Source of the DNA: a virus
Reading direction: 5' to 3' (one strand)
Length of the DNA stretch: 21,633 nucleotides
Virus record (IMG/VR): IMGVR_UViG_3300020180_000129
Span: 1 to 21,633 of that record
Both the position numbers and the translations under genes were made by a program. Shown here piece after piece: positions 2,167-16,399 of the stretch. Each line of letters starts with the position of its first letter. Within the stretch, counting starts at the first letter, position 1. The notes below the pieces were generated by a model. It ran no database searches, was not told the DNA's origin, and saw only the letters and a list, made by a program, of their open reading frames with translations.

Positions 2167-3485
2167 ACCTCCTTCAGCGTCTCTCACGCGAGGAACGGTC
2201 CATTTCTGTCGCCGACTACCTCGGGCAGGCGTTCGAAACGTACATGGTGAACGGGAACGCGTATCCGATCACCAGCTACGGGCAGGGTGGGACAGAGAAG
2301 CCGATCCCGAACGGCAACGCAGGTCTCTACAAGCAGAACCCGGTGCTGTTCTCGGTGGTGCAGACCCGGCTCTCCCTGTTCTCCGAGGCCCGGTTCCAGT
2401 GGCAGCAGTTGCGTGCCGGCCGTCCCGGTGACCTGTTCGGTAACGAGACCCTCGATGTTCTCGAGCGTCCGTGGTTGAACGGCACGACGGGTGACCTCCT
2501 CGCGCGGATGGAACAACGCGTCAGCACCGAAGGCAACTTTTACGGCGTCATCCGTGACCGGCAGATCAAGTCCCTGAATCCGTTGTGGGTTGACGTGTTG
2601 CGCGGCACCCGTGGCGGGGATGCAGAAGACGACAAGAACGAACTCACCGCCGAGCTCCTCGGTTACGCGTACCACCCTGGCGGTACGCCGTCGCTCAACT
2701 CGGCGATTCTCCTCCCCGACGAGGTCGCTCATTTCGCGCCGATCCCCGACCCGGATGCGATGCACCGCGGGATGGCGTGGATCTCTCCCCTGATCCGTGA
2801 GGTCGCCGCAGACAACGCGGCGACGGCCCACAAGGCGGCGTTCTGGCGGAACGCTGCAACTCCGAACATGGTCATCAAGTTCGCCCCGGACGTGAACGAG
2901 CAGAAGGCCGAAGCGTGGAAACGGGTCATGGAGTCCGATCACGTCGGTGCGTTCAACGCGTACAGCAACCTGTACGTCGGTGGTGGTGCCGATGTGACCG
3001 TCGTCGGCGCGGACTTCAAGCAGATGGACTTCAACAACGTGACGGGGCGTGGCGAGACACGTATCGCCGCGGCGGGTGGCGTCCCCCCGGTGATCGTCGG
3101 GCTCTCTGAAGGGCTTCAGGCCGCGACGTATTCGAACTACGCGCAAGCCCGCCGACGGTTCGCTGACGGTTGGGCTCGCCCACAGTGGCGTTCCGCCGCC
3201 GGCGCGCTCGAGTCGATCCTGCCCACCCCTCCCGGTTCACGGCTTTGGTACGACGACCGCGACATCCCGTTCCTGCAAGAAGATCAGAAAGACGCCGCGG
3301 AGATCCAGGGGCAGCAGGCGTCGACGATCCGGCAGTTGACCGACGCCGGGTTCACACCTGAATCCGCGGTCGACGCCGTCCTGAACGCCGACTTCTCCCG
3401 TCTGGTCCACACCGGTCTGTATTCAGTGCAACTCACCCCGCCCGGCACGGACATGACACCCCCCGCGCAAGGAGTTCCCGTATGA
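2163..3485 (+). CDS. Phage portal protein
   Basis: This 440-residue protein probably forms the dodecameric ring at the capsid vertex through which DNA enters and leaves and to which the terminase and connector bind. It resembles HK97/SPP1-type portals: an N-terminal region with VFSVVQTRLSLFSEARFQW (about 59-78), a beta-rich wing with GNFYGVIRD (about 122-130), WRNAATPNMVIKF (about 229-241), and AAGGVPPVIVGLSEG (about 303-317) in the stem and tunnel-loop region. The start is GTG 2163, chosen because GGGAGG at 2151-2156 gives a six-base spacing and because the GTGA overlap with the upstream stop matches other junctions here. It ends in an ATGA overlap with the protease gene. Assignment follows motif, length and order: terminase, portal, protease, capsid. 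Confidence 0.95.
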   Translation: MNLLQRLSREERSISVADYLGQAFETYMVNGNAYPITSYGQGGTEKPIPNGNAGLYKQNPVLFSVVQTRLSLFSEARFQWQQLRAGRPGDLFGNETLDVLERPWLNGTTGDLLARMEQRVSTEGNFYGVIRDRQIKSLNPLWVDVLRGTRGGDAEDDKNELTAELLGYAYHPGGTPSLNSAILLPDEVAHFAPIPDPDAMHRGMAWISPLIREVAADNAATAHKAAFWRNAATPNMVIKFAPDVNEQKAEAWKRVMESDHVGAFNAYSNLYVGGGADVTVVGADFKQMDFNNVTGRGETRIAAAGGVPPVIVGLSEGLQAATYSNYAQARRRFADGWARPQWRSAAGALESILPTPPGSRLWYDDRDIPFLQEDQKDAAEIQGQQASTIRQLTDAGFTPESAVDAVLNADFSRLVHTGLYSVQLTPPGTDMTPPAQGVPV

Positions 3486-4198
3486 CCGACTTCATCCGCG
3501 ACTATCCGTTCGAGTTCGCAGAGACCCGCGGCGAAGGCGACGGACTGACGCTCGAAGGGTACGTCGCGGTGTTCGACTCCCCGACGGTCATCCACGAACG
3601 TGGTGGTTCGTTCACCGAGACCGTGGCGCGTGGTGCGTTCAAGAAGACACTCGCGGAACGTACCCCGGTCCTGATGTTCGACCACGGCCAACATCCCCTC
3701 ATCGGGGACATGCCCCTCGGTCTGATCACTCGCGCCGTCGAAGATCAGCACGGCGTGTTCATCCGTGCGCGGCTACATCAGAACTGGCTCATCGAGCCTG
3801 TCCGCGAAGCCATCGCGTCGAAAGCGGTCCATGGGATGTCGTTCCGGTTCGAAGCGATCAACGACAACTGGAACGCGAAGCGCACGACCCGTGAACTCGT
3901 CGAGGTGCGTGTCCCTGAGGCTGGTCCCGTAGTGATGCCTGCCTACGACACCACGTCTGTCGGTGTGCGTTCCCGTGAAGCGTTCCGGCTTCTCCACGAC
4001 CCCGAAGTGCGTCGCGACCTCGCCTACATGGCAGCACGCGACGCCGAGGACTTGGCACTCGACGAGGGGGCCGTCCGAACGGACACCCCCGACCTCGAGC
4101 CGCCCGCACCAGAGAAGGAGCCGGCGAACGCCACTCCTGACAACTCAGACCGCGTCGAACGTCTTCGGACGCTCGCCAAGCTCAAAGGAATCATCTGA
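3482..4198 (+). CDS. HK97-type prohead maturation protease
   Basis: This 238-residue serine protease probably sits inside the prohead and cleaves the capsid N-terminal scaffold region before DNA packaging. The fold signature is clear: LEGYVAVFDSPTVI near the start, the catalytic His in FDHG (H68), the catalytic Ser in HGMSFRF (S120), and a strand with EVRVPEAGPVVMPAY that usually carries the third triad member. The last 50 residues are charged and low-complexity (PPAPEKEPAN), typical of the self-removed tail. Start ATG 3482 has AAGGAG at 3469-3474 and overlaps the portal stop by four bases. It shares a base with the capsid start. Known for the family (peptidase U35 / PF04586): herpesvirus-like Ser-His-acid protease, usually 200-260 residues. 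Confidence 0.95.
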   Translation: MTDFIRDYPFEFAETRGEGDGLTLEGYVAVFDSPTVIHERGGSFTETVARGAFKKTLAERTPVLMFDHGQHPLIGDMPLGLITRAVEDQHGVFIRARLHQNWLIEPVREAIASKAVHGMSFRFEAINDNWNAKRTTRELVEVRVPEAGPVVMPAYDTTSVGVRSREAFRLLHDPEVRRDLAYMAARDAEDLALDEGAVRTDTPDLEPPAPEKEPANATPDNSDRVERLRTLAKLKGII

Positions 4199-5613
4199 TG
4201 ATCAACTCCCTCAGTGAGGCGCGGGCAACGCTCGCGGTTCTCATGGAAGAGGTGACGGAACTCTCCAGCCTGGAGTCCGTCACCCCCGAACAGGAAGCCC
4301 GCCTCGACTCGCTCGTCTCGACCGAGATCGACGAGCAGCGCGCCCGTGTCGATGCACTCGAGGCACGCGAAGCGAAGGTCTCGGAGATCCGCAAGCTCTC
4401 GGAGCGTGAGTCCGTGCGTGAAGAGGGTGCGGATCCTGCGTCGCGTGGTTCCCGCAAGAAGTCCGACCCGTTCGACCTGTCCGAGGTCCGTGGCGACATG
4501 AGCGCACCGGGTCGTGTCCGCGAGCTCCGTGCCCGTGCCCACGACGCGATCGAGCAGGCCCCGGAGTACGTCACCGACGCGCAGCGCACCTCGGCTGCGA
4601 AGCACCTCGACAACGACACGAAGGGTGACGTTGCGGCGCACTACCTGACCTACGGGTCACCGGAGTACGTCGACTCGTGGACGAACTACATGACGACCGG
4701 AACCTTCCGTTCGTCGGATGGTGAGCACAACCGTGCGGCGATGAGCACCACCGCTGCGAACGGTGGTTACCTCATCCCGTTCCACCTCGACCCGACCGTC
4801 ATCCTGACGAACTCGGGCAGCACCAACCCGTTCCGGGCGATCTCGCGAGTCGACACGATCGCGAGCAACGTGTGGCACGGTGTCACGTCGGCGGGTGTGA
4901 CGGCGGAGTGGACCGCGGAGGCCGCTGAGGTCACCGACGCTTCTCCGACGTTCGCTCAGCCGACCATCACCCCGGTGCGCGCTGACGCGTATCTGCAAGC
5001 CTCGTTCGAGGTCACGCAGAACTCGGACATCGCGAACCAGATCGCGATGCTCATCGCGGACGCGAAGGACAACCTGGAAGCCGCCGCGTTCGCGACGGGT
5101 ACAGGTTCGACGCAGCCGTGGGGTCTCGTCACCCGTCTCGCCGCTACCACGGCCAGCCGAGTGTCGGCCGTGTCCAACGGTCAGTTCGGGGTCGCGGACG
5201 TGTTCGCTCTCGTGAACGCGCTTCCGGCCCGCCACCAGGACATGGTGTCGTGGTTGGGCCACTGGGGCATCTTCAACCTCGCCCGCCAGTTCGGCGTCGG
5301 CGCGGTTGGTCAAGGTGCGTTCTGGGCGGACCTCGGTCCGGGTATCCCGTCGCAGCTTGTCGGTGCTCCCGTCTACAAGTCGAGCTCGATGACTTCGAGT
5401 CTCTCCTCGGCGACGGCAAGCAACGACGACATCCTGGTGCTCGGGAACTTCTCCCGGTTCCTGATCGTCGACGCGATGGGCCTCGAGACCGTCTACAACC
5501 CGCTCGTCATCGGCGCGAACCGCCGGCCGACGGGCGAGGTTGGTTGGGCCGCGTTCTGGCGGACCGGCTCCGACGTGCTCGACACCGGGGCGTTCCGAAT
5601 GCTCCGGGCGTAG
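4198..5613 (+). CDS. Major capsid protein, HK97 fold
   Basis: This 471-residue protein is the likely shell subunit. Residues 1-80 are highly charged and helical, with a strong coiled-coil look. This fits a delta-domain scaffold that the upstream protease would remove. A linker follows to about residue 180, then the typical HK97 body begins with MSTTAANGGYLIP at 182. Within it are VTAEWTAEAAEVTDASPTF and the E-loop/P-domain region ASFEVTQNSDIANQIAMLI. A conserved TGTGSTQPWGLV segment follows, and the protein ends with VGWAAFWRTGSDVL. The ATG at 4198 overlaps the protease stop by one base and has an AAAGGAA ribosome binding site (4184-4190), among the best in the window, as expected for the most abundant protein. 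A strong hairpin follows 20 bases after the stop. The exact cleavage site is not visible. Confidence 0.96.
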   Translation: MINSLSEARATLAVLMEEVTELSSLESVTPEQEARLDSLVSTEIDEQRARVDALEAREAKVSEIRKLSERESVREEGADPASRGSRKKSDPFDLSEVRGDMSAPGRVRELRARAHDAIEQAPEYVTDAQRTSAAKHLDNDTKGDVAAHYLTYGSPEYVDSWTNYMTTGTFRSSDGEHNRAAMSTTAANGGYLIPFHLDPTVILTNSGSTNPFRAISRVDTIASNVWHGVTSAGVTAEWTAEAAEVTDASPTFAQPTITPVRADAYLQASFEVTQNSDIANQIAMLIADAKDNLEAAAFATGTGSTQPWGLVTRLAATTASRVSAVSNGQFGVADVFALVNALPARHQDMVSWLGHWGIFNLARQFGVGAVGQGAFWADLGPGIPSQLVGAPVYKSSSMTSSLSSATASNDDILVLGNFSRFLIVDAMGLETVYNPLVIGANRRPTGEVGWAAFWRTGSDVLDTGAFRMLRA

Positions 5614-5633
5614 CCCGATCCACAGTCGCAGTT

Positions 5634-5663
5634 GGGGGACTGGCCGGTAGGGGCCGGTCCCCC
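5634..5663 (+). terminator. Strong hairpin after capsid gene, probable terminator
   Basis: Bases 5634-5645 and 5652-5663 form a 12-bp stem, all Watson-Crick except one G-T pair, around a six-base loop (GGTAGG). The stem begins 20 bases after the capsid stop and is very GC-rich. Only TTCT follows, so it lacks a full U-tract; actinobacterial terminators often do. It may be a partial terminator or an mRNA stabiliser that keeps capsid transcript levels above those of the downstream sugar cassette. Confidence 0.65.
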
Positions 5664-5682
5664 TTCTGCACCTCACCTACCT

Positions 5683-5689
5683 GGGGAGA
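5683..5689 (+). promoter_or_regulatory. Ribosome binding site of the small Cys/His gene
   Basis: GGGGAGA ends five bases before ATG 5695. The frame is open back to an ATG at 5632, but that codon lies at the edge of the terminator hairpin and has no comparable site, so 5695 is the start. Confidence 0.7.
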
Positions 5690-5694
5690 ACATC

Positions 5695-5871
5695 ATGGAC
5701 AACTCACGCGCAGTGGAACAAGCCACGTCCAACCCGGGCGAGGTCCGAGAACTGACATCCGTACCCCCCGACGAGAAGCGATGCCACGCAAAGGTCGCCC
5801 ACTACCGCTGCAGCCTTGAACTCGGCCACACTGGCGAGCACGCCAACGGCATGCTTCGGATCGACGAGTGA
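5695..5871 (+). CDS. Small Cys/His protein, candidate zinc-binding
   Basis: This is a 58-residue acidic protein of unknown function. The first 25 residues look disordered. The C-terminal half has C30-x8-C39-x5-H45-x3-H49, ending in GHTGEHANG. This C...C...GHxGxH arrangement recurs in short actinobacterial and actinophage proteins and could hold one zinc ion. The gene has its own good ribosome binding site after the capsid hairpin. Its stop overlaps the start of the two-domain glycosyltransferase (GTGA), so it opens the sugar cassette and may be translated with it. A role as a small structural or regulatory partner is only a guess. Confidence 0.75.
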   Translation: MDNSRAVEQATSNPGEVRELTSVPPDEKRCHAKVAHYRCSLELGHTGEHANGMLRIDE

Positions 5872-7382
5872 ACCGGGCTCAGAGACGCCAAGCAGACCGG
5901 CAACGAGTCGATTCGGTGTGTGTCGCGTACCCTCATCCGGGGGAAGTGGCGGCACCGTTCCACAAGTCGCTCGTCGCGTTGATGGTCTACGACGCGATGG
6001 GTGGGATCGACCCGGACGGTAAGCACGTCGGGGGTCACGGTCACGTCACCCGACATGGGTCACATCTCCCGATGTCGTCGGGTGCGAACATCGTCGCGGC
6101 ACGGAACCTGATCGCGAAAGAGTTCCTGGCGATCGAACCGACTCAAGAGTGGTTGTGGTTCATCGACGCGGACATGGAGTTCCCCCCGAACGTCCTCGAC
6201 GCGCTCCTCGCGTCGGCGGATCCGGTGGAACGACCCATCGTCGGCGGACTGTGTTTCGCGGTGATGAAGTCCGAAGCATCGCAGCCGATCGTCCCGACGC
6301 TCTACATGCCGACGAACACCGGCAAGTTGGGCCGGTGGAACGGCTACCCACCCGAACAACTCGTCCAGGTCGCCGGTACCGGGGCGGCGTGTCTCCTCAT
6401 CCATCGTTCCGTGTTGGAGGCGATGCGAGACGCGGTCGTGAACGAAGAACTCGCCGCCGTGACCGGTGCTCCTGAAGGAACGCTGCGGTTCCCTCCCCCG
6501 TGGCCGTGGTTCGCGGAGTCGATCACGGGCCGCGACTGGGGTGACTCCATGTCGGAGGATCTGACGTTCTGCATGCGTGCAGCGACGTGCGGGTTCCCGA
6601 TCTGGGTGGACACCCGAATCAAGATCGGTCATCAGAAACCGTTCGTGGTCGACGAGGCGATGTTCAAGCTCTACACCCCGAAAGCCGAACCGCCGGCTCC
6701 GACGTTCGTGGTGATCCCTGTCCGTGGGAAGCAGGACATCACCGAGTCGATCCTCACCCAGTTGGACAAGCAGGGCGGCTTCGAGAAGGTCTTCCTGTTC
6801 GACAACGGCACGGGAGACGATGTCTACGGCCGGCCCCTCCCCGACGTCGTCGAACGGATCCCCACGCCGGGGAAGAACATCCACCAGATGTGGAACGAGG
6901 GCATCCGTGAAGCGGTCGCTCTGGAACCCCGCTGCAACGTCCTGATCTTGAACAACGATCTCGAGCTCGACGACGACTTCGTCGAAGAGATGGGAGTCGC
7001 AGCGAGACTGCACCCGGCGTTCCCGGCGGTGTCTGCGAACTACGACGACCGGCAGATGGTCGAGAAGATCCAGGGCGTCCACGGGATCTGTGCGAACCGC
7101 TACGACGGAACCGGGGGGTTCGCCGGGTTCGCGTTCATCGTCCGTGGCGAGATGTTCGGGAAGCAACTCCCCTGGTTCGACGAGGACTACGAACTGTGGT
7201 TCGGCGACAACGACTTCCTTATGGAGCTTGAGACCCGAGACTTCGCGTACGGCATAGCTCGCGACGCTCAATGCCACCACCTCGACGGCGGTTCGCAGAC
7301 AGACAAGGCGTTCGCGTCTGAGACCGAACCGATGAAAGTCCGGGACCGGGCACGGTTCGAGAAGAAGTGGGCGGCCCGGTGA
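5868..7382 (+). CDS. Two-domain GT-A glycosyltransferase
   Basis: This 504-residue protein appears to carry two GT-A modules in tandem. The first (about 15-275) has the acceptor/donor helix NIVAARNLIAKEFL and a DxD metal site at D100-A101-D102 (WFIDADMEFPP). It ends with a GTGAACLLIHRSVLEAM segment and SEDLTFCMRAATCGFPIWV, typical of GT2-type enzymes. After a proline-rich linker (about 275-283), a second Rossmann-like module starts at TFVVIPVRGKQDITESIL. It has N362-N363-D364 (ILNNDLELDDDF) as its DxD equivalent, a GGFAGFAFIVRGEMF segment and FGDNDFLMELETRDF. The second module resembles GT2 rhamnosyl- or galactofuranosyl-type domains. The donor sugars are unknown. The GTG start overlaps the previous stop by four bases. 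It may add two sugars in succession, or one module may only bind. Capsid or tail glycosylation is inferred from position. Confidence 0.85.
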   Translation: MNRAQRRQADRQRVDSVCVAYPHPGEVAAPFHKSLVALMVYDAMGGIDPDGKHVGGHGHVTRHGSHLPMSSGANIVAARNLIAKEFLAIEPTQEWLWFIDADMEFPPNVLDALLASADPVERPIVGGLCFAVMKSEASQPIVPTLYMPTNTGKLGRWNGYPPEQLVQVAGTGAACLLIHRSVLEAMRDAVVNEELAAVTGAPEGTLRFPPPWPWFAESITGRDWGDSMSEDLTFCMRAATCGFPIWVDTRIKIGHQKPFVVDEAMFKLYTPKAEPPAPTFVVIPVRGKQDITESILTQLDKQGGFEKVFLFDNGTGDDVYGRPLPDVVERIPTPGKNIHQMWNEGIREAVALEPRCNVLILNNDLELDDDFVEEMGVAARLHPAFPAVSANYDDRQMVEKIQGVHGICANRYDGTGGFAGFAFIVRGEMFGKQLPWFDEDYELWFGDNDFLMELETRDFAYGIARDAQCHHLDGGSQTDKAFASETEPMKVRDRARFEKKWAAR

Positions 7383-8020
7383 TCGGACTGGTCGTTGTCT
7401 CGGACCGCCGATCCCACCTCGCAGGGTGTCTGAGCTCGCAGGACGAGCAGATCCTCGAACCGTTCGACCTGACCGTCCTCGTAGACGACTCAGGAGAAGG
7501 TCATCACGAACACCGCTACGACGACTTCGACGTGGTCGTCGCTCACCCGGAGAGGCGTGGACTCGCCGCGGCGGTGCAGTCCGGCTGGTTCGCGGCCCGA
7601 GAGTGCGACTGGGTCTTCCACCTCGAGGAAGACTTCACGTTCACTCGGCCGGTGTCACTGAAACGACTTGAAGAGACCGCCACGGTCTGCGATCTCGCTC
7701 AGCTTGTCCTCAAACGGCAACCATGCAACCCGGACGAGCTTGCGGCCGGGGGGATGGTGGAGAACACCCCCGAACTGTGGACGGCGCACGATCATCCGTA
7801 CGCGCATCTTCAGCAGACCTACTTGTTCTCCTTGAACCCGTGTCTGATCCCCCGGTGGGTCCGGGACGTCGGCTGGCCCGACAACGGTGGCGAACGCGAG
7901 TTCACCGACCGACTCCACGCCGAACATCCCGACGCGACGTTCGGATTGTGGGGCCGACGTCACGACGACCCTGCGGTGCGGCATCACGGCGACACCCGAT
8001 CCAATGGGTGGAAGTTGTGA
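7379..8020 (+). CDS. Glycosyltransferase-like protein, GT-A fold
   Basis: This 213-residue protein begins like a GT-A domain (IGLVVVSDRRSHLAGCL) and continues with LTVLVDDSGEG and the helix PERRGLAAAVQSGWFAA. CDWVFHLEEDFTF follows, where E83-E84-D85 takes the place of the usual DxD. Further on are a YLFSLNPCLIPRWV stretch and acidic GGEREFTDRL, which fit the acceptor-binding side. The start GTG 7379 is preferred to a GTG 12 bases upstream because it gives the same GTGA four-base overlap seen at the neighbouring junctions. It is shorter than standard GT2 enzymes (usually 230-300) and its metal site is atypical. Activity is therefore plausible but not certain. Substrate unknown. Confidence 0.72.
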   Translation: MIGLVVVSDRRSHLAGCLSSQDEQILEPFDLTVLVDDSGEGHHEHRYDDFDVVVAHPERRGLAAAVQSGWFAARECDWVFHLEEDFTFTRPVSLKRLEETATVCDLAQLVLKRQPCNPDELAAGGMVENTPELWTAHDHPYAHLQQTYLFSLNPCLIPRWVRDVGWPDNGGEREFTDRLHAEHPDATFGLWGRRHDDPAVRHHGDTRSNGWKL

Positions 8021-8613
8021 CCATCCCCCTCCTGGTACTCGGTGCTGGTGGGCACGGCCGTGACGTCGCCGCCATCGCCGCGCAGCTCCCCGGGTACCGG
8101 CTCCTCGGCTTCCTCGACGACGACATCCGGCTCGGTCACCCTCGCTGCTCTGACCTCAAGGGCTACACCGAACACACGCAGTTCGTTGTCGGAGTGAACC
8201 ACGGCGGCGTCCGGCAGCATCTCGCCCAGGAACACGGCTACGACCGCACCTCGGCCACGCTGATCCACCCGACGGCGTTCGTTGGCCCGGACTGCACAAT
8301 CGGCCGAGGATCCGTCCTCGGCCCGTACAGCGTCCTCTCGACGGGCGTGACGCTCGGCGACCATGTCCACCTAAACGTCGGGGCGTCTGTCTCCCAGGGG
8401 TCGACTCTCGGGGATTTCGTGACCCTCGGGCCGAAAGCGAGTGTGTGCGGAGACGTGACCATCGGAGCCCGTTCGACGCTCGGCGTCGGAGCATCAGTCG
8501 CGAATGTCGTGACCGTCGGATCAGACGTGACGATCGGCGCGCATTCCTGTGCTCTCGACGACGTTCCCTCCGGCATCACTGCGGGTCACACACCGGCACG
8601 GCGAATCGGGTGA
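8017..8613 (+). CDS. PglD/NeuD-like acyltransferase homologue (left-handed beta-helix)
   Basis: This 198-residue protein has an N-terminal nucleotide-sugar-binding Rossmann-like domain (LVLGAGGHGRDVAAIA at 6-21, then LLGFLDDD). A left-handed beta-helix of hexapeptide repeats follows from about residue 90 (HPTAFVGPDCTIGRGSVLGP onward) to the C-terminus, ending with AGHTPARRIG. This is the architecture of PglD and NeuD, which acetylate amino sugars of nucleotide-sugar or sialic-acid pathways using acetyl-CoA. Aligned without gaps on the LN...-x-x-GD segment, N120 matches Asn118 of Campylobacter PglD. The catalytic His125-Glu126 pair is replaced by Q127-G128 (SVSQGSTLGD). The enzyme may therefore be altered or inactive. 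The GTG start and the end both form four-base overlaps. No dehydratase or aminotransferase gene is nearby, so any amino sugar would come from the host. Confidence 0.85.
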   Translation: MTIPLLVLGAGGHGRDVAAIAAQLPGYRLLGFLDDDIRLGHPRCSDLKGYTEHTQFVVGVNHGGVRQHLAQEHGYDRTSATLIHPTAFVGPDCTIGRGSVLGPYSVLSTGVTLGDHVHLNVGASVSQGSTLGDFVTLGPKASVCGDVTIGARSTLGVGASVANVVTVGSDVTIGAHSCALDDVPSGITAGHTPARRIG

Positions 8614-9353
8614 CGATCATCGGGCTCGCGATGGTGCGAGACGAAGAAGATGTCCTCGACCATCTCCTCGCTCACATGATCGGCCAAGGCGTCGACCGCC
8701 TGGTGATCGCCGACAACCTCTCCACGGACTCCACCCCCGAGATCCTCCACCGGTGGTCTCTCACCAGCCCGGTAGAGGTCCGTCAGGACAACGACCCCGG
8801 CTACTACCAGGCACGCAAGATGACGGCGCTACTTCACTCCTGCGGGGCAGTGGACGGCGACTGGATACTCCCCTTCGATGCCGACGAGTGGTGGTACCCC
8901 ACCGAAGGAACTCTCGGTGAAGTCCTCCCCGACCTCGAGGCGGACGTCCTCCGAGTGTGGGGATGGAACCACTACCCCAACCCGACCGACGCCGACGACC
9001 CGAACCCGTTCACCCGGATGCAATGGCGTGAACCGGGAACACAGAAACACCCGAAGGTCTGGTTCCGCTACCACCCCGACGCTGTCGTCGGGATGGGTAA
9101 CCACGACGTCACCCGACCCGGCCGGCACATCGGAGCGAACCGCGTCGTCGAGTTCCGCCACATGGGCGTCAGGTCTTTCGATCAGTTCACCCGCAAGGCC
9201 CGGAACGGCGCGGAAGCGTACGAGGCCACCGACCTCCCTCACTGGTACGGGACTCATTGGCGGGAATGGGGTGCGATGACCCCCGACGAACTCCGAGCCG
9301 AGTACGACCGGTTCTGCTGTCTCGCCACCGTCCACGACCCCGCGCCGGCATGA
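8610..9353 (+). CDS. Glycosyltransferase family 2-like protein
   Basis: This 247-residue protein starts at GTG 8610 by four-base overlap with the preceding stop. It opens with TIIGLAMVRDEEDVLDHLLAHMIGQGVDRLVIADNLSTD (in pieces, about 2-40), the usual N-terminal strand-helix of the GT2 subgroup found in WaaE/KdtX-type and Glyco_tranf_2_4 proteins. The metal site is D90-A91-D92-E93 followed by WW (WILPFDADEWW), a very characteristic motif. His- and Arg-rich segments follow (KVWFRYHPDAVVGMGNHDV and EFRHMGVRSFDQFTRKARNG), consistent with that subgroup. The frame is intact and the length normal. The donor is unknown; position suggests that it adds a sugar to a virion protein or to a glycan begun by its neighbours. 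Confidence 0.87.
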   Translation: MTIIGLAMVRDEEDVLDHLLAHMIGQGVDRLVIADNLSTDSTPEILHRWSLTSPVEVRQDNDPGYYQARKMTALLHSCGAVDGDWILPFDADEWWYPTEGTLGEVLPDLEADVLRVWGWNHYPNPTDADDPNPFTRMQWREPGTQKHPKVWFRYHPDAVVGMGNHDVTRPGRHIGANRVVEFRHMGVRSFDQFTRKARNGAEAYEATDLPHWYGTHWREWGAMTPDELRAEYDRFCCLATVHDPAPA

Positions 9354-9886
9354 GTATCGCCGTCTGCGTCGTGTCCCTGCCTGAGCGTCACAACCTCCTC
9401 GCTGAGGCACTCGACTCGGTCTACGCGCAGACTCTCCAACCCGACGACGTCGCAGTAGGTGTCGACTACCAGCGGCGCGGCGAAGTTCCGAACATGAACC
9501 GGCTCATCGACTCGACGGACGCCGAGTGGGTCGCGTTCCTTCACGACGACGACCTGTGGGCACCCGATCACCTCGCGGTGTGCTCCGAGTTCTTCGACCA
9601 GTCCGACGTCGTCGTGTCTCGTTACGAGCTCGTGGGCCGGCCGGTTTCCACGATCGAACCGTGGCACACCGACTTCGGTGACCTGACGTGGACGAACTGG
9701 ATCGGTTCCCCGTCGATGGTCGTCGCCCGCCGGCGGTTCCGGTTCCACGAGGCAGACAACCGGTATCGCTGGAACGACTGGCGGACGTATAACACCTGGC
9801 TCGAGGACGGCGCACGGTTCGTCGACACCCACAGGATCACGACTGCGTACCGGTTCTTCGGGGATAACGGATCATGGAAGGCGTAG
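9350..9886 (+). CDS. Short GT-A glycosyltransferase
   Basis: This 178-residue protein starts at ATG 9350 (ATGA overlap). It begins SIAVCVVSLPERHNLLAEALDSVYAQTLQP, the first strand and helix of GT2 enzymes (RxxLLxEALDSVxAQT). It has the metal motif H65-D66-D67-D68 in AFLHDDDLWAPDHL, then WIGSPSMVVARRRFRF, a typical post-DxD strand, and ends with RWNDWRTYNTWLEDGARFV. It is about 60-80 residues shorter than most family members, apparently a minimal catalytic core without the C-terminal extension. It is the last gene of the sugar cassette; the connector gene begins three bases after its stop. Confidence 0.85.
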   Translation: MSIAVCVVSLPERHNLLAEALDSVYAQTLQPDDVAVGVDYQRRGEVPNMNRLIDSTDAEWVAFLHDDDLWAPDHLAVCSEFFDQSDVVVSRYELVGRPVSTIEPWHTDFGDLTWTNWIGSPSMVVARRRFRFHEADNRYRWNDWRTYNTWLEDGARFVDTHRITTAYRFFGDNGSWKA

Positions 9887-9889
9887 CTC

Positions 9890-10477
9890 ATGGCTCTCCT
9901 TGACGTCTTCACCCTCGGGCAAGCCAAGAAGGGCTTGAACGTCACCGTTCCTGTCACACAGGATCCCGACATCCAGGGGTTCGTCACGGCGATCTCGCAA
10001 CGCTTCGACGACCCGGACATTTGCGGGCCGGTCGTTCACCGGACGATCACCGCCGAGATCACGTCTGGTGGGCGGGCGTGGGTGCGGTTGAAGCACCGAC
10101 CCATCGTCTCTGTCGCATCGGTGACCATTGGCGGCACGGTGAGTACCGCCTACGTCCTCGATCCCGACGAGGGCATCCTTTGGTCCGACGCGGGCTTCAC
10201 GCGTGGCCGTCGGAACATCTCCGTTACCTACACGGCGGGACGGTTCGCTACAACCGCCGAAGTGACTGAACGGTTCATCCACGCCGCGCAGATCACGTTC
10301 ACTCATCTCTGGACCGCTGAGCGGGGTGCGGGGTCGTCGGTGTTCGGGAACATGGATCAGGACTCCCAGCCGCGTTACGGGATGCTCGCCACGGGTGTCC
10401 CATCGTTCGCGATCCCGAAAGCCGCACGGGAGATCCTCGGGTCCGAGTTTCGTGGTCCGCAGGCGTGGGTGGTATGA
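9890..10477 (+). CDS. Head-tail connector protein (gp6-like)
   Basis: This 195-residue protein matches the head-tail connector class that forms a ring under the portal (HK97 gp6 / SPP1 gp15). A helical start includes DPDIQGFVTAISQRFDD. A beta region follows with RAWVRLKHRPIVSVASVTIGG and NISVTYTAGRF, the standard 'VxYxAG' strand. A helix, FIHAAQITFTHLWTAER, comes next, and the C-terminal tail includes FAIPKAAREIL. The ATG at 9890 has a GGAAGG site (9875-9880). It ends in an ATGA overlap with the next gene. Position directly before a gp10-like protein supports the call. Confidence 0.85.
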   Translation: MALLDVFTLGQAKKGLNVTVPVTQDPDIQGFVTAISQRFDDPDICGPVVHRTITAEITSGGRAWVRLKHRPIVSVASVTIGGTVSTAYVLDPDEGILWSDAGFTRGRRNISVTYTAGRFATTAEVTERFIHAAQITFTHLWTAERGAGSSVFGNMDQDSQPRYGMLATGVPSFAIPKAAREILGSEFRGPQAWVV

Positions 10478-10932
10478 GCACCGCCGCGCAGGTCTCCGAT
10501 GACTTCAAGAAGCTGCAACGCGATGCCCGCAAGATGAAGACAGCGGGAACGCGAGGCGCTGCACGTCACGTCAAGAACGAAATCCTCGACGAACTGAAGG
10601 GCACGCCGTTCCGGTCCCGGAAGCTGCGGAACATGGGCGGCGCTCGGCTGACCGTATCAATGCGAGTGAAGGGCGACACGGCGGTCGTGAAGGCCGGCGG
10701 TCCGTTCCGGCTCGTGGAAGCCGGCGCGCGTCCGCATGTCATCCCGCTGCGTGGCGGGAACCCGCATCGACTTCTGAAGTTCCCTGACGGCAACGTCCGT
10801 TACGGCCCGGTGAAGCATCCGGGCACGAAGGGTTACAGGCCGTTCGAGCGTGGTGTCGACAAGTCCGGGCCGGGGATCGTGAAGGCATTCGATGATGCCC
10901 TCGCGGTGTCGGTCGCGAAGTTCGCCGGGTGA
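10474..10932 (+). CDS. HK97 gp10-like neck / tail-completion protein
   Basis: This 152-residue basic protein has a helical N-terminus (residues 5-40) and then alternating strands: ARLTVSMRV, GDTAVVKAGGPFRLVEAGARPH, and the characteristic VKHPGTKGYRPFERGVDKSG near the C-terminus. That motif is the hallmark of HK97 gp10-type neck proteins, which help join the finished tail to the head. The ATG start is at the four-base overlap with the connector gene (a GTG nine bases upstream is less likely). It also overlaps the next gene by four bases (GTGA). Confidence 0.85.
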   Translation: MSTAAQVSDDFKKLQRDARKMKTAGTRGAARHVKNEILDELKGTPFRSRKLRNMGGARLTVSMRVKGDTAVVKAGGPFRLVEAGARPHVIPLRGGNPHRLLKFPDGNVRYGPVKHPGTKGYRPFERGVDKSGPGIVKAFDDALAVSVAKFAG

Positions 10933-12756: not shown

Positions 12757-15700
12757 CAAGGTTCTCTCTGTAGTCATCGTCGGAAACGAAGCGAAGTATG
12801 TCAAGGCGATCCAGTCGTCCGTCACTGCAACGAACAAGCTCGAGCAGGCCACGAAGTCTGCGTCGAACACCTCGTCCACGGTTGGGGACCAGGCCACGAA
12901 GTCACTCACGAAGGCAGCCGATTCCACTTCGCTGCTGAGTAGGGGTCTGACCGGCGTCGGGAACTTAGCGAAGGACGCCGCGGGTGCGTTCACTGGTTTC
13001 CTCGCCGCGTCTGCGGTGATCGCGTCGGTGACTCGCGTGTTCTCGGTTCTGTCGTCCGCGGTCCTCGATTTCGACCGGAACATGCGGAACGTGAACTCGT
13101 TGCTCGGCCAGTCCGACGCAGGGTTCGCGAAGATGGGGGACGCGGTCCTCGGTCTGTCCCGCGAACTCCCCCAGTCGGCGTCTGCACTCTCCGCGGGTCT
13201 GTATGACGTCGTCTCGTCCGGGTTCGAGGGTGCGGATGCTCTCTCGGTGTTGCGGGCGTCGGCTGTAGCGGCGTCTGCGGGACTGACGGACACGGCGACG
13301 TCGGGTCGTGCGATCTCGGGTGTGCTCAACGCATACGGGCTCTCAGCGGCCCATGCGGGTGAAGTGTCGGACACTCTGTTCCAGACCGTGAACCTCGGTG
13401 TCATCACGTTCGAGGAACTCGCCGGCACGATCGGTGACTTCGTCGGTACCGCTGCGGCGCTGGGTGTCCCGATCGACGATGCAGCGTCGGCACTCGCGAC
13501 GATGACTCTCTCCGGTATCTCCGCGGAGGAATCCTCCACCGCGCTGAACCGGGTCATGTTGGCGCTCATCAAGCCGACGACTCAGATGGCGGCGCTGTTC
13601 AAGTCGTGGGGTTTCGAATCCGGCACCGCGGCGGTGCAGGCTCTCGGGCTCCGCGGAGTCATGGACCGCATCCGCGAGTCGACGGGCGGGACCGCGGACT
13701 CGATGCAGGGGCTGTTCGAAGAAACCCGGGGTCTGAAGGGTGCTCTGGCGCTCGTCTCCGATGAGGGCAGGAACTACGCCCGGGTCGCGGCGGGGATGGG
13801 TGAAGCACACAAGGGTGCAGGCGCAGCCGCGAAGGTGCTCGCCGAACAGTCGAAGTCCCTGTCGTTCCAACTCGCACTCCTGAAGAACAACGCAGTCGCG
13901 GCCGGGATCGAGCTCGGCCGTGCGATCGGCCCCACGATCGCTAAGGGACTGAGCCTCATTCGCGACGTGTCCCGCGATGTCGGCGCGGCACTCGTCGCGA
14001 TGTGGAAAGGCGCGCAACCCGGTATCAAGGCCGTCGGGGATGCTCTCTCCGATGTCGGGTCGATCTTCGGAGACCTACTCGACGCGGTCGGTCCGATCGC
14101 AGGGGCGTTCGCGAAGATCGCCGCAGGGTCAGTCGTCGCGACGTTCAACGGTCTAGCGAAAGCCGTCTCCGCGACGACTGGGTTCCTGAAGGATCACTCC
14201 TATCTCGTCATCGCGGTCGGAGCGTTGTACGCAGGGCAGTTGGCGCAAGGCATCGCGGCGACTGTCGTGCAACTCGGGCGGCTAGCTGCTGCGAATGCTG
14301 CCGGGGCGATCTCCAACCTTGCCGGAACAGCCACGACGGCCGTCGGGGCGTTCCGCGCCATCCAGTCGCAGATGATCGCGACGGGCGTCGCGTCGACGGG
14401 TCTCGGTTCGGCGCTCGCCGCGGCGAAGTCGATCTTCCTAGAGTTCGCCACGGTCGGTGGAGTGGCTGGCACCGTCGCCCTCGTTGGACTGGCGGCGGCG
14501 TTCTACGCGAACTCTCAGGCGATCAAGAAAGCAAACGAGGAAGCCGGCGCGTCGATCGACCGCCTGTTCGAACGGTTCGATGAAACGAAGTCCGAGGGGA
14601 TCTTCAAGCTCTCAAAGAGTCTCGGTCGTGGCGTAGACGAGATCCTCGCGGCTGGCGACCGGGCGAAGACCGGAGGGAAGAACGTCGAGCGGGCGCTCGC
14701 GAACATCAACCCGTTCGCAGACAACTCTCTCCAACGCGACGCAGCGCAGGCCGAGAAGACGATCGCTGCGATGGAACGGGTCGGACAGGCCCGGTTCAAC
14801 CTGGAGAAGAACCTCCGCACGGTCGCGAAGGGTACGGGCATCAAGGGGTTCTTCGAACCCATCATCGACGAGATCGACGCGACTGGTCGGATCATCGGAT
14901 CGAAGCTGGCTCCCACCGCGAAGGTCTTTGAGCAGTTCGCACGCACGCTGGGAGAAGACCTCACGAAGTCGGGACCGAAGGCACGCGAAGCCGCGATCCG
15001 CGTCGGTGAGGCTCTCGACGTTCTCGGTAAGCAGGCCGGCTACACGAAGGACCAACTGAATCAAGGGTTCTTCGACCCGGAGACCCTCACTGCCGAGGCA
15101 GCGGCCGCGAAGGCGTTCTCTGACTCTGTGTCGAAATCGTTCTCGGACGTCGGGGACATCCTCGCGTTCGACTTCGGTGACAACCTGAACGGCGCGTCGA
15201 TCATCCAGTTCTACACGGACACGATTGCCGCGACCGACGAGTTCACCGCGAACATCGCGAAGGCATACGAGCTCGGACTTGATCCGGGGCTCATCTCCCG
15301 TTTGCTGGTCGCGGGCCCGAAGGAAGCGGGCGAACTCCTGAAGACCCTCGTTAGCGAACAGGGCGCAGGGTTCATCGAGCAGGTGAACAACTTCGAGTCG
15401 GCGATCCGTCAGCAGTCGCAGGTCGCGACGGAGATCGCACGGCTTCAACAACGCGCACTCCTTCCTGAGAACACTGACACGATCGCTTCGTTCCTTCCGA
15501 ACGCGATTCGCATCGCGGGCGAGAAGGCCAAGCAGGGCGCGGCGTCGTCGGTGGAGTCGATCGCCGCGGCGCTCAAACTCACGCCGTCGCAGGTAGCGGA
15601 GATCGCGGGGTCGTACAACATCGACCTCCCGGGCGGTCCGAGGACCACCGTCAACGTCGACACTCTCGTCGCCGAGGTGAAGATCAAGGATCTCAAAGCG

Positions 15701-16399
15701 GCGCTGGCGGTGATCCCCCCGGAGGTCACGACCACCCCGAAGATCGACGATCCCGAAGCCGTGAAGACCTGGTGGAACGACCTGAAGGAACGGCTACTGC
15801 TCATCCCTGGTATTCGGGAGACGGTGGCGAAGATCGACGACCCCCAGCAGGCGCTCGTGTTCTGGCAGGCACTCCAGGCGAAGGTGACGGGCGTTCCGCA
15901 GAACTGGCAGACCACCTACCGGGTGAATGCCGACACGTCTGCGTTCGATGCTGCTATCGAACGGATCCGCCGCACCGCTGGAGAAGTGGTCTCGGTCCCT
16001 GTCGTCGGGTCGGGGAACCTTCGCCGCAACGCTGAAGGGAACATCCTCGACGGGCGAGGCAACGTCCGACGCTTCGCTGACGGTGGTCACTACGCCCAGA
16101 TCGACCGGTCCCGAGTCACGCGCATCTGGGCGGAACCCGAAACCGGTGGAGAGGCGTACATCCCTCTCGCGAAGTCGAAGCGTGCAAGGTCCGCACGAAT
16201 CCTGATGGCCGTGGCCGACGAGTTCGGGATGAGCTTCGCGAACGGTGGGATCACCGGCCGCAGGGTGCAGGCCAGTTCGATGAGTTCAAACACCCAGAAC
16301 GTCACGAACGTGAACGCCACAGTCATCGACCGTAAGGGTGACGGGGTACAGACCCTCGTCGACGAGTTCGCGTGGCTTCGTGTGACTGGGCGAATCTGA
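12749..16399 (+). CDS. Tape measure protein
   Basis: This 1216-residue protein sets tail length and probably travels into the host envelope at infection. The start is GTG 12749, with GAGGGG at 12736-12741. The N-terminal TP901-type core spans about residues 105-300 (FDRNMRNVNSLLG, LPQSASALSAGLYDVVSSGF, GITFEELAGT-like segment, LSGISAEESSTALNRVM). Hydrophobic segments lie at about 77-105, 484-510 and 569-588, likely membrane-active. Long helical regions with many Ala, Lys and Glu fill the middle. Residues 966-1085 hold four roughly 30-residue repeats. The C-terminus has ADGG and RIWAEPETGGEAYIPLAKSKRARS, typical of actinophage tape measures. I see no peptidase or lysozyme motif. By the rule of about 0.15 nm per residue, the tail would be near 180 nm (inference). 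Confidence 0.96.
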   Translation: MADKVLSVVIVGNEAKYVKAIQSSVTATNKLEQATKSASNTSSTVGDQATKSLTKAADSTSLLSRGLTGVGNLAKDAAGAFTGFLAASAVIASVTRVFSVLSSAVLDFDRNMRNVNSLLGQSDAGFAKMGDAVLGLSRELPQSASALSAGLYDVVSSGFEGADALSVLRASAVAASAGLTDTATSGRAISGVLNAYGLSAAHAGEVSDTLFQTVNLGVITFEELAGTIGDFVGTAAALGVPIDDAASALATMTLSGISAEESSTALNRVMLALIKPTTQMAALFKSWGFESGTAAVQALGLRGVMDRIRESTGGTADSMQGLFEETRGLKGALALVSDEGRNYARVAAGMGEAHKGAGAAAKVLAEQSKSLSFQLALLKNNAVAAGIELGRAIGPTIAKGLSLIRDVSRDVGAALVAMWKGAQPGIKAVGDALSDVGSIFGDLLDAVGPIAGAFAKIAAGSVVATFNGLAKAVSATTGFLKDHSYLVIAVGALYAGQLAQGIAATVVQLGRLAAANAAGAISNLAGTATTAVGAFRAIQSQMIATGVASTGLGSALAAAKSIFLEFATVGGVAGTVALVGLAAAFYANSQAIKKANEEAGASIDRLFERFDETKSEGIFKLSKSLGRGVDEILAAGDRAKTGGKNVERALANINPFADNSLQRDAAQAEKTIAAMERVGQARFNLEKNLRTVAKGTGIKGFFEPIIDEIDATGRIIGSKLAPTAKVFEQFARTLGEDLTKSGPKAREAAIRVGEALDVLGKQAGYTKDQLNQGFFDPETLTAEAAAAKAFSDSVSKSFSDVGDILAFDFGDNLNGASIIQFYTDTIAATDEFTANIAKAYELGLDPGLISRLLVAGPKEAGELLKTLVSEQGAGFIEQVNNFESAIRQQSQVATEIARLQQRALLPENTDTIASFLPNAIRIAGEKAKQGAASSVESIAAALKLTPSQVAEIAGSYNIDLPGGPRTTVNVDTLVAEVKIKDLKAALAVIPPEVTTTPKIDDPEAVKTWWNDLKERLLLIPGIRETVAKIDDPQQALVFWQALQAKVTGVPQNWQTTYRVNADTSAFDAAIERIRRTAGEVVSVPVVGSGNLRRNAEGNILDGRGNVRRFADGGHYAQIDRSRVTRIWAEPETGGEAYIPLAKSKRARSARILMAVADEFGMSFANGGITGRRVQASSMSSNTQNVTNVNATVIDRKGDGVQTLVDEFAWLRVTGRI
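15644..16003 (+). repeat. Four 30-residue tandem repeats in tape measure protein
   Basis: Repeat units begin at residues 966, 995, 1025 and 1055 of the tape measure (TTVNVDT, TTPKIDD, TVAKIDD, TTYRVNAD). Each runs through an amphipathic helix to an (I/V)P or VP end. The spacing of 29, 30 and 30 residues is regular. Units two and three share KIDDP, aromatic WW/FW and a final IP/VP. The DNA copies are diverged, so this is an old protein-level repeat. Confidence 0.75.

Follow-up and report, generated by a model that had tools for sequence, protein, structure and literature searches.

The window analysed here is a viral DNA stretch of 21,633 nucleotides, a 21.6-kb linear fragment held in IMG/VR (IMGVR_UViG_3300020180_000129), and its element of interest is a block of genes at 5695-9886 on the + strand that mostly encodes putative glycosyltransferases (GTs) and is likely to serve in decorating the virion with sugars. 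The block lies inside an operon running in the order terminase, portal, protease, major capsid protein (MCP) and onwards to the tape-measure gene, and it consists of six complete open reading frames (ORFs) with 0 internal stops, named g1 to g6 in their order (Table 1). It starts 81 bp past the MCP stop and ends 3 bp ahead of the ATG of the head-tail adaptor (connector), and all five internal junctions are exact 4-base overlaps (GTGA in four and ATGA in one). The original prediction had placed the block between capsid and connector with such overlaps throughout, with which the coordinates and the family matches of both border genes agree, but it also took the overlaps as a sign of one functional unit. 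We dropped this argument, because portal and protease (3482-3485) and another gene pair outside the block (10929-10932) overlap in the same way; the unity of the cassette is shown by conserved synteny instead. Since GC content (0.63-0.67) and GC at third codon positions (0.75-0.84) are the same in the block and in the flanking head and tail genes, the block is not compositionally foreign.

Table 1. Genes of the block and its two borders in the window, with products as predicted from family matches and structure models (aa, amino acids).
Feature	Position	Strand	Predicted product and matches
MCP, upstream border	4198-5613	+	HK97-type major capsid protein, 471 aa; PF05065 Phage_capsid, E=7.6e-31; phrog_10
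g1	5695-5871	+	Cys/His protein, 58 aa, motif EQATSNPGEVRxL
g2	5868-7382	+	Two-domain GT-A glycosyltransferase, 504 aa
g3	7379-8020	+	Single-domain GT-A glycosyltransferase, 213 aa; 'galactosyl transferase' PHROG
g4	8017-8613	+	PglD/NeuD-like left-handed beta-helix protein, 198 aa, altered active site
g5	8610-9353	+	Family-2 glycosyltransferase, 247 aa, DAD motif
g6	9350-9886	+	Short family-2 glycosyltransferase, 178 aa, DDD motif
Connector, downstream border	9890-10477	+	Head-tail adaptor; phrog_442, E=2.1e-19

According to models and family profiles, g2, g3, g5 and g6 are glycosyltransferases with five GT-A domains in total, as had been proposed, with two domains coming from the g2 model, one from g3 and two from the Pfam assignments of g5 and g6. 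The AlphaFold2 model of g2 (pLDDT 90) has two GT-A domains, and Foldseek ranks the E. coli K4 chondroitin polymerase (2z86, E=3e-11) first among its matches, ahead of LH3, COLGALT1 and GalNAc-T2; the proposal of a two-domain GT is thereby upheld. The likeness to the K4 enzyme lies in tandem GT-A domains aligned along the whole g2 chain, whereas the global TM-score is low, probably due to a differing orientation of the domains, and g2 is not a member of that family at the sequence level. Both domains keep acidic catalytic-type motifs, D100, D102, D364, D447 and H471 are invariant or nearly so across 36 homologues, and the PF00535 match is weak (20.5 bits, below the cut-off of 23.3). The g3 product had been called only 'GT-like'; its nature as a sugar enzyme stands and the label is corrected to a predicted GT-A enzyme by the AlphaFold2 model (pLDDT 94) and the GT-A folds found by Foldseek (B4GALNT1, RmlT, TarP and GalNAc-T2), together with a match to phrog_3047 (E=1.6e-12) and D37, E83 and D85 being invariant in 45 homologues. 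The two further GTs that had been suggested both score above the Pfam cut-offs for family-2 enzymes, g5 with PF13704 (E=4.3e-14) and g6 with PF00535 (32.1 bits; also phrog_14775, E=1.1e-15), and g5 matches the 80 best viral loci of a scan with its alignment at 35-50% identity. A hydropathy scan covering the window cassette and some 200 homologous GT ORFs gave no transmembrane-like helix.

The identity of g4 as a PglD/NeuD-like protein is confirmed by PglD_N (35.6 bits) and Hexapep (68.6 bits) matches above cut-off. It resembles PglD over its full length when aligned with 4m98, 7txp and 4eaa, and shares the PglD_N domain and the left-handed beta-helix with the sugar N-acyltransferases PglD, NeuD, PerB and VioB. 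However, the catalytic histidine of these enzymes (the PerB His141 class), which according to mutant work on PerB reportedly acts as general base, is Gln127 in g4, and their second histidine is Thr136. Among 31 phage homologues position 127 holds Arg in 15, Gln in 8 and His in 8, the second position is mostly Thr, and the family keeps instead an HxH pair in which His118 is invariant and His116 nearly so. With the catalytic histidine replaced by Gln in g4 and by Arg or Gln in 23/31 family members, the acyl part of the 'acylated multi-sugar glycan' envisaged earlier is doubtful, and neither an acetyl nor another acyl group on the glycan is a safe prediction. The loss of the catalytic histidine in g4, as read from these alignments, is a new observation of this study.

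Cassettes homologous to that of the window follow the MCP gene in dozens of uncultured phages. Scanning IMG/VR with individual proteins and with alignments yielded some 300 loci, a good part of them overlapping, in which the order MCP-g2-g3-(g4)-g5-(further GT)-connector recurs; the full order from MCP through g2, g3 and g5 to the connector was present in 15 non-identical clusters. In a cassette-neutral sample, gathered by MCP alone (from IMG/VR the best 80 matches) and with isolate and metagenome classes inferred from the style of the IMG accession, GTs followed the MCP in 26/51 metagenomic phage contigs, in 0/13 isolate-genome contigs (Fisher p=4e-4) and in 1/41 bacterial-genome loci (p=1e-7). 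Loci that lack GTs mostly have less than 1.5 kb between MCP and connector, as against 1.4-8 kb in those that have them. On a tree of 168 MCPs the GT state required 7 changes, compared to a mean of 54.3 after shuffling, with 0/500 shuffles as low; the tree takes in GT-seeded loci and over-samples GT-positive phages, and the absolute GT frequency on it is therefore not meaningful. Distances among the same loci correlate with MCP distance at r=0.89 for g3 and 0.86 for g4, which is nearly as close as for portal (0.93) and protease (0.92), and on this comparison we rejected the idea of a tighter tie to the capsid gene for the GT genes than for the rest of the head genes. A strict tie to a lytic lifestyle was likewise rejected: a tyrosine integrase is found in 5/27 cassette-bearing records, so the cassette is not confined to lytic phages.

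Related GT sets were also found beside capsid genes of other kinds. In 20 related clusters without a match to the MCP profile, the large ORF preceding the GT genes was a major head protein in 13 (phrog_10, 283, 1328 and 1650), and in the other seven it was a lysis, portal, GT, DNA polymerase or unassigned gene. Such recurrence next to MCPs from different PHROG families suggests that the capsid is the partner of these sets. The two closest MCP relatives of the window (L284 and L002) and a further relative (L103) carry methyltransferases, none of which was found by Pfam in the window cassette. In L284 a UDP-glucose/GDP-mannose dehydrogenase, an NAD-dependent epimerase and an FkbM methyltransferase are inserted at 13730-15797, and L103 has a methyltransferase and a dehydrogenase at 8167-9461; sugar-nucleotide enzymes and methyltransferases in such close relatives support the assembly of a special sugar. 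The dehydrogenases of the cassette relatives are of the short nucleotide-sugar type and the methyltransferases are FkbM or Methyltransf_24.

The composition of the structural proteins gives a hint of the substrate. In the presence of GTs the Ser+Thr content of the MCP is higher by 2.0 percentage points (phylogenetic regression +0.020, p=0.0002). Taken by parts, the last 300 residues of the MCP show the rise (p=0.001), while in the first 150 it does not reach significance, and portal, protease and terminase did not differ in the same regression. With numerous compositions tested and few independent transitions, this signal is only suggestive; the MCP is the probable main substrate of the cassette.

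Taken together, it is likely that the genes at 5868-9886 form a phage-encoded cassette for virion glycosylation, chiefly of the capsid. As the cassettes share their place next to the MCP gene and travel with it, a sugar coat on the virus shell is the most likely outcome, and virion decoration, the leading idea from the beginning, is strengthened by the capsid-linked inheritance, the several MCP families, the lack of a membrane partner and the likeness to cluster J mycobacteriophages described below. The cassette, inserted between capsid and connector genes, would be expressed late together with the head genes, using nucleotide-sugar donors supplied by the host in the window phage and partly made by the phage in its relatives. 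One soluble GT-A enzyme would start the glycan on Ser or Thr of the virion, most probably on the MCP, and the remaining GT-A domains would lengthen it, the two-domain g2 probably adding two sugars in turn, while g4 may modify or bind a sugar nucleotide. The benefit could be shielding or altered adsorption. A wider proposal, which we put forward tentatively and consider less likely than not, is that tailed-phage capsids bear glycan coats as a stable, inherited condition, maintained by interchangeable GT cassettes that have settled beside unrelated capsid genes several times, largely outside the sampled prophages, and that these include a PglD-fold enzyme whose rebuilt active site, with its invariant HxH in place of the catalytic histidine, makes an uncharacterized sugar modification.

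Several observations weigh against a capsid-directed cassette. It is known here from genes alone, not from a glycan or a mass shift, and we infer its protein target, linkage, sugar order, time of expression and benefit. Linkage alone could account for the joint inheritance with the MCP, as core head genes track it at least as closely, and the correlation with MCP distance is lower for g2 (0.68). Ser/Thr content is raised also in the connector (+0.023, p=0.003), and a test on independent pairs, five pairs only, was not significant by the sign test. Profile matches to GTs reported to be required for glycosylation are weak (Che8 gp110, 0.005; Myrna gp234, 1e-6), and so is that to Firecracker gp35 (7e-6); in these comparisons Firecracker and Baka stood in for Corndog and Omega. 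Adjacency to the capsid is common and not universal, since some related GT sets adjoin lysis or DNA polymerase genes, the Che8 GTs lie at the far end of the genome, distant from the capsid, and GX15bay (L009) has a GT/methyltransferase cluster with g3-, g5- and g6-like genes at 3690-8813, upstream of terminase.

The rise of Ser/Thr in the connector along with the MCP would also be expected if the target were another virion protein (major tail, connector, decoration or tail-tip protein) and the place beside the capsid gene a mere genomic convenience, and mycobacteriophage tail proteins are reported to be glycosylated too (PMC12363180). We regard such a target as improbable, as related sets recur beside the MCPs of several PHROG families and the shift within the MCP is significant in its C-terminal but not in its N-terminal part. 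A different possibility is that the cassette alters glycans of the host cell surface (wall teichoic acid, arabinogalactan or a glycolipid) late in infection, and thereby blocks superinfection or frees the progeny from receptor debris. TarP and RmlT, which are among the best fold neighbours, glycosylate wall teichoic acid, and precursors of the wall in the cytoplasm would be within reach of soluble GTs. However, membrane helices were found neither in the cassette nor in the homologous GT ORFs, and the cassette has no flippase and no polyprenyl-linked or membrane GT, in which it differs from gtr-type cassettes for host glycan conversion. In addition, the genes sit within the late head operon, where no promoter-like site was found, they pass down together with the capsid gene, and the cassette is lacking from isolate prophages, to which the exclusion of rivals would bring the greatest benefit. 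Because of the lacking membrane parts, the lacking separate promoter-like site and the cassette-free isolate prophages, we consider action on the host surface unlikely. T4-type phage GTs act on DNA, and the enzymes might in principle glycosylate modified bases of the phage genome, but a thymidylate-synthase-type or dCMP-hydroxymethylase-type enzyme was present in 0/20 records, many of them fragments, and the enzymes, encoded among the head genes, are similar to GTs of proteins and polysaccharides, which makes this explanation very hard to believe.

The arrangement of GTs from capsid to connector is itself already known from cluster J mycobacteriophages (Pope et al. 2013, PMC3706429), in which 8-10 genes are inserted between these two genes, among them several GTs, a methyltransferase, a kinase and a two-domain GT (Omega gp16) likened to chondroitin synthase. 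The window shares with this cluster (Omega, Baka, Thibault and LittleE) the several GTs between MCP and head-tail connector and the two-domain GT, for which the comparison to the E. coli chondroitin synthase agrees with our g2 model, and profile matches link Baka gp11 to the N-terminal domain of g2 (1e-41), gp14 to g6 (1.6e-31) and gp20 to g5 (9e-13). In contrast, cluster J has its own extras (kinase, methyltransferase and zinc protease), the kinase also being absent from the window cassette, Baka has no g4-like match in the interval examined, and the MCP profile of this study did not pick up the cluster J MCP; the window for its part contains g3 and g4, and its two-domain GT is one fused protein.

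Glycosylated virions are described for Che8, Corndog and Myrna (Freeman et al. 2023, as reported in PMC12363180), and glycosylated tail proteins beside capsids are reported for mycobacteriophages in the same source, in line with the precedent that the original prediction had named. Che8 (gp110), Corndog (gp38) and Myrna share with the window the possession of phage-encoded GTs; those of cluster O lie inside the head operon in the portal-protease gap, as in Corndog, for which few capsid peptides were seen in mass spectrometry (PMC4351075), and those of Che8 are far from the capsid genes, unlike in the window. Che8 gp108, a match of the g6 profile (E=2.6e-12), is closer to the window GTs than gp110.

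What is new here is how widely the arrangement occurs, that it is inherited with the capsid gene and recurs next to MCPs of several families, and also the altered PglD-like protein, which is a concrete enzyme candidate. Virion glycosylation has been demonstrated only in a few mycobacteriophages, in which it changes antibody recognition. If the cassette does decorate the capsid, about half of the sampled metagenomic relatives in this capsid lineage would encode their own sugar coat, the trait would be predictable from the neighbourhood of the capsid gene, and the question asked for cluster J (PMC3706429), whether the GT targets are viral or of the host, would become testable. It would also bear on phage stability and adsorption.

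The phage source of the window appears to be of an actinobacterial type, with a mycobacterium not established as the host. The nearest bacterial-genome relatives of its capsid are in Nocardiopsis, Actinomadura and Streptomyces, and MCP relatives at 36-57% identity are found in actinobacterial prophages and uncultured phages. A near-identity DNA search of 50,697 phage records gave no match to the window, and no tRNA was found in it. A search for hosts among 84,980 species genomes, made with the g2 alignment, gave 59 pattern matches, of which 0 were confirmed, with a pattern method that missed the g2-like gene of a Microbacterium metagenome-assembled genome contig (L281). This contig is the only one of the 41 MCP loci in bacterial genomes with an adjoining g2-like GT.

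The small gene g1 had been counted as a member of the sugar unit, which we rejected. A protein with the EQATxxPGExR motif ends within 3 kb past the MCP (<=3 kb) in 52/161 loci, 31 with GTs and 21 without, and only 2 motif ORFs are located elsewhere; g1 is accordingly classed by its sequence motif as an ordinary capsid-adjacent gene outside the cassette. In its wider form, E[QRST]ATxxPGE[KR]R, the motif sits at or near the end of otherwise dissimilar small proteins, some with Cys/His parts, and its carriers include the window (5695-5871), L008, L014, L147, L150, L248, L259 and others. Possibly it is a docking peptide to the capsid or connector.

The slot between MCP and connector also holds other genes. 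In one relative (L003) a 186-aa protein without a Pfam match, peptidase-like by eye only, lies between g4 and g5 (12757-13314). The GT-less M. abscessus prophage prophiGD02-2 (L007) has in this slot an 'oxidoreductase' and a 'capsid decoration protein' (8352-9495), and capsid-coat genes may commonly be housed there.

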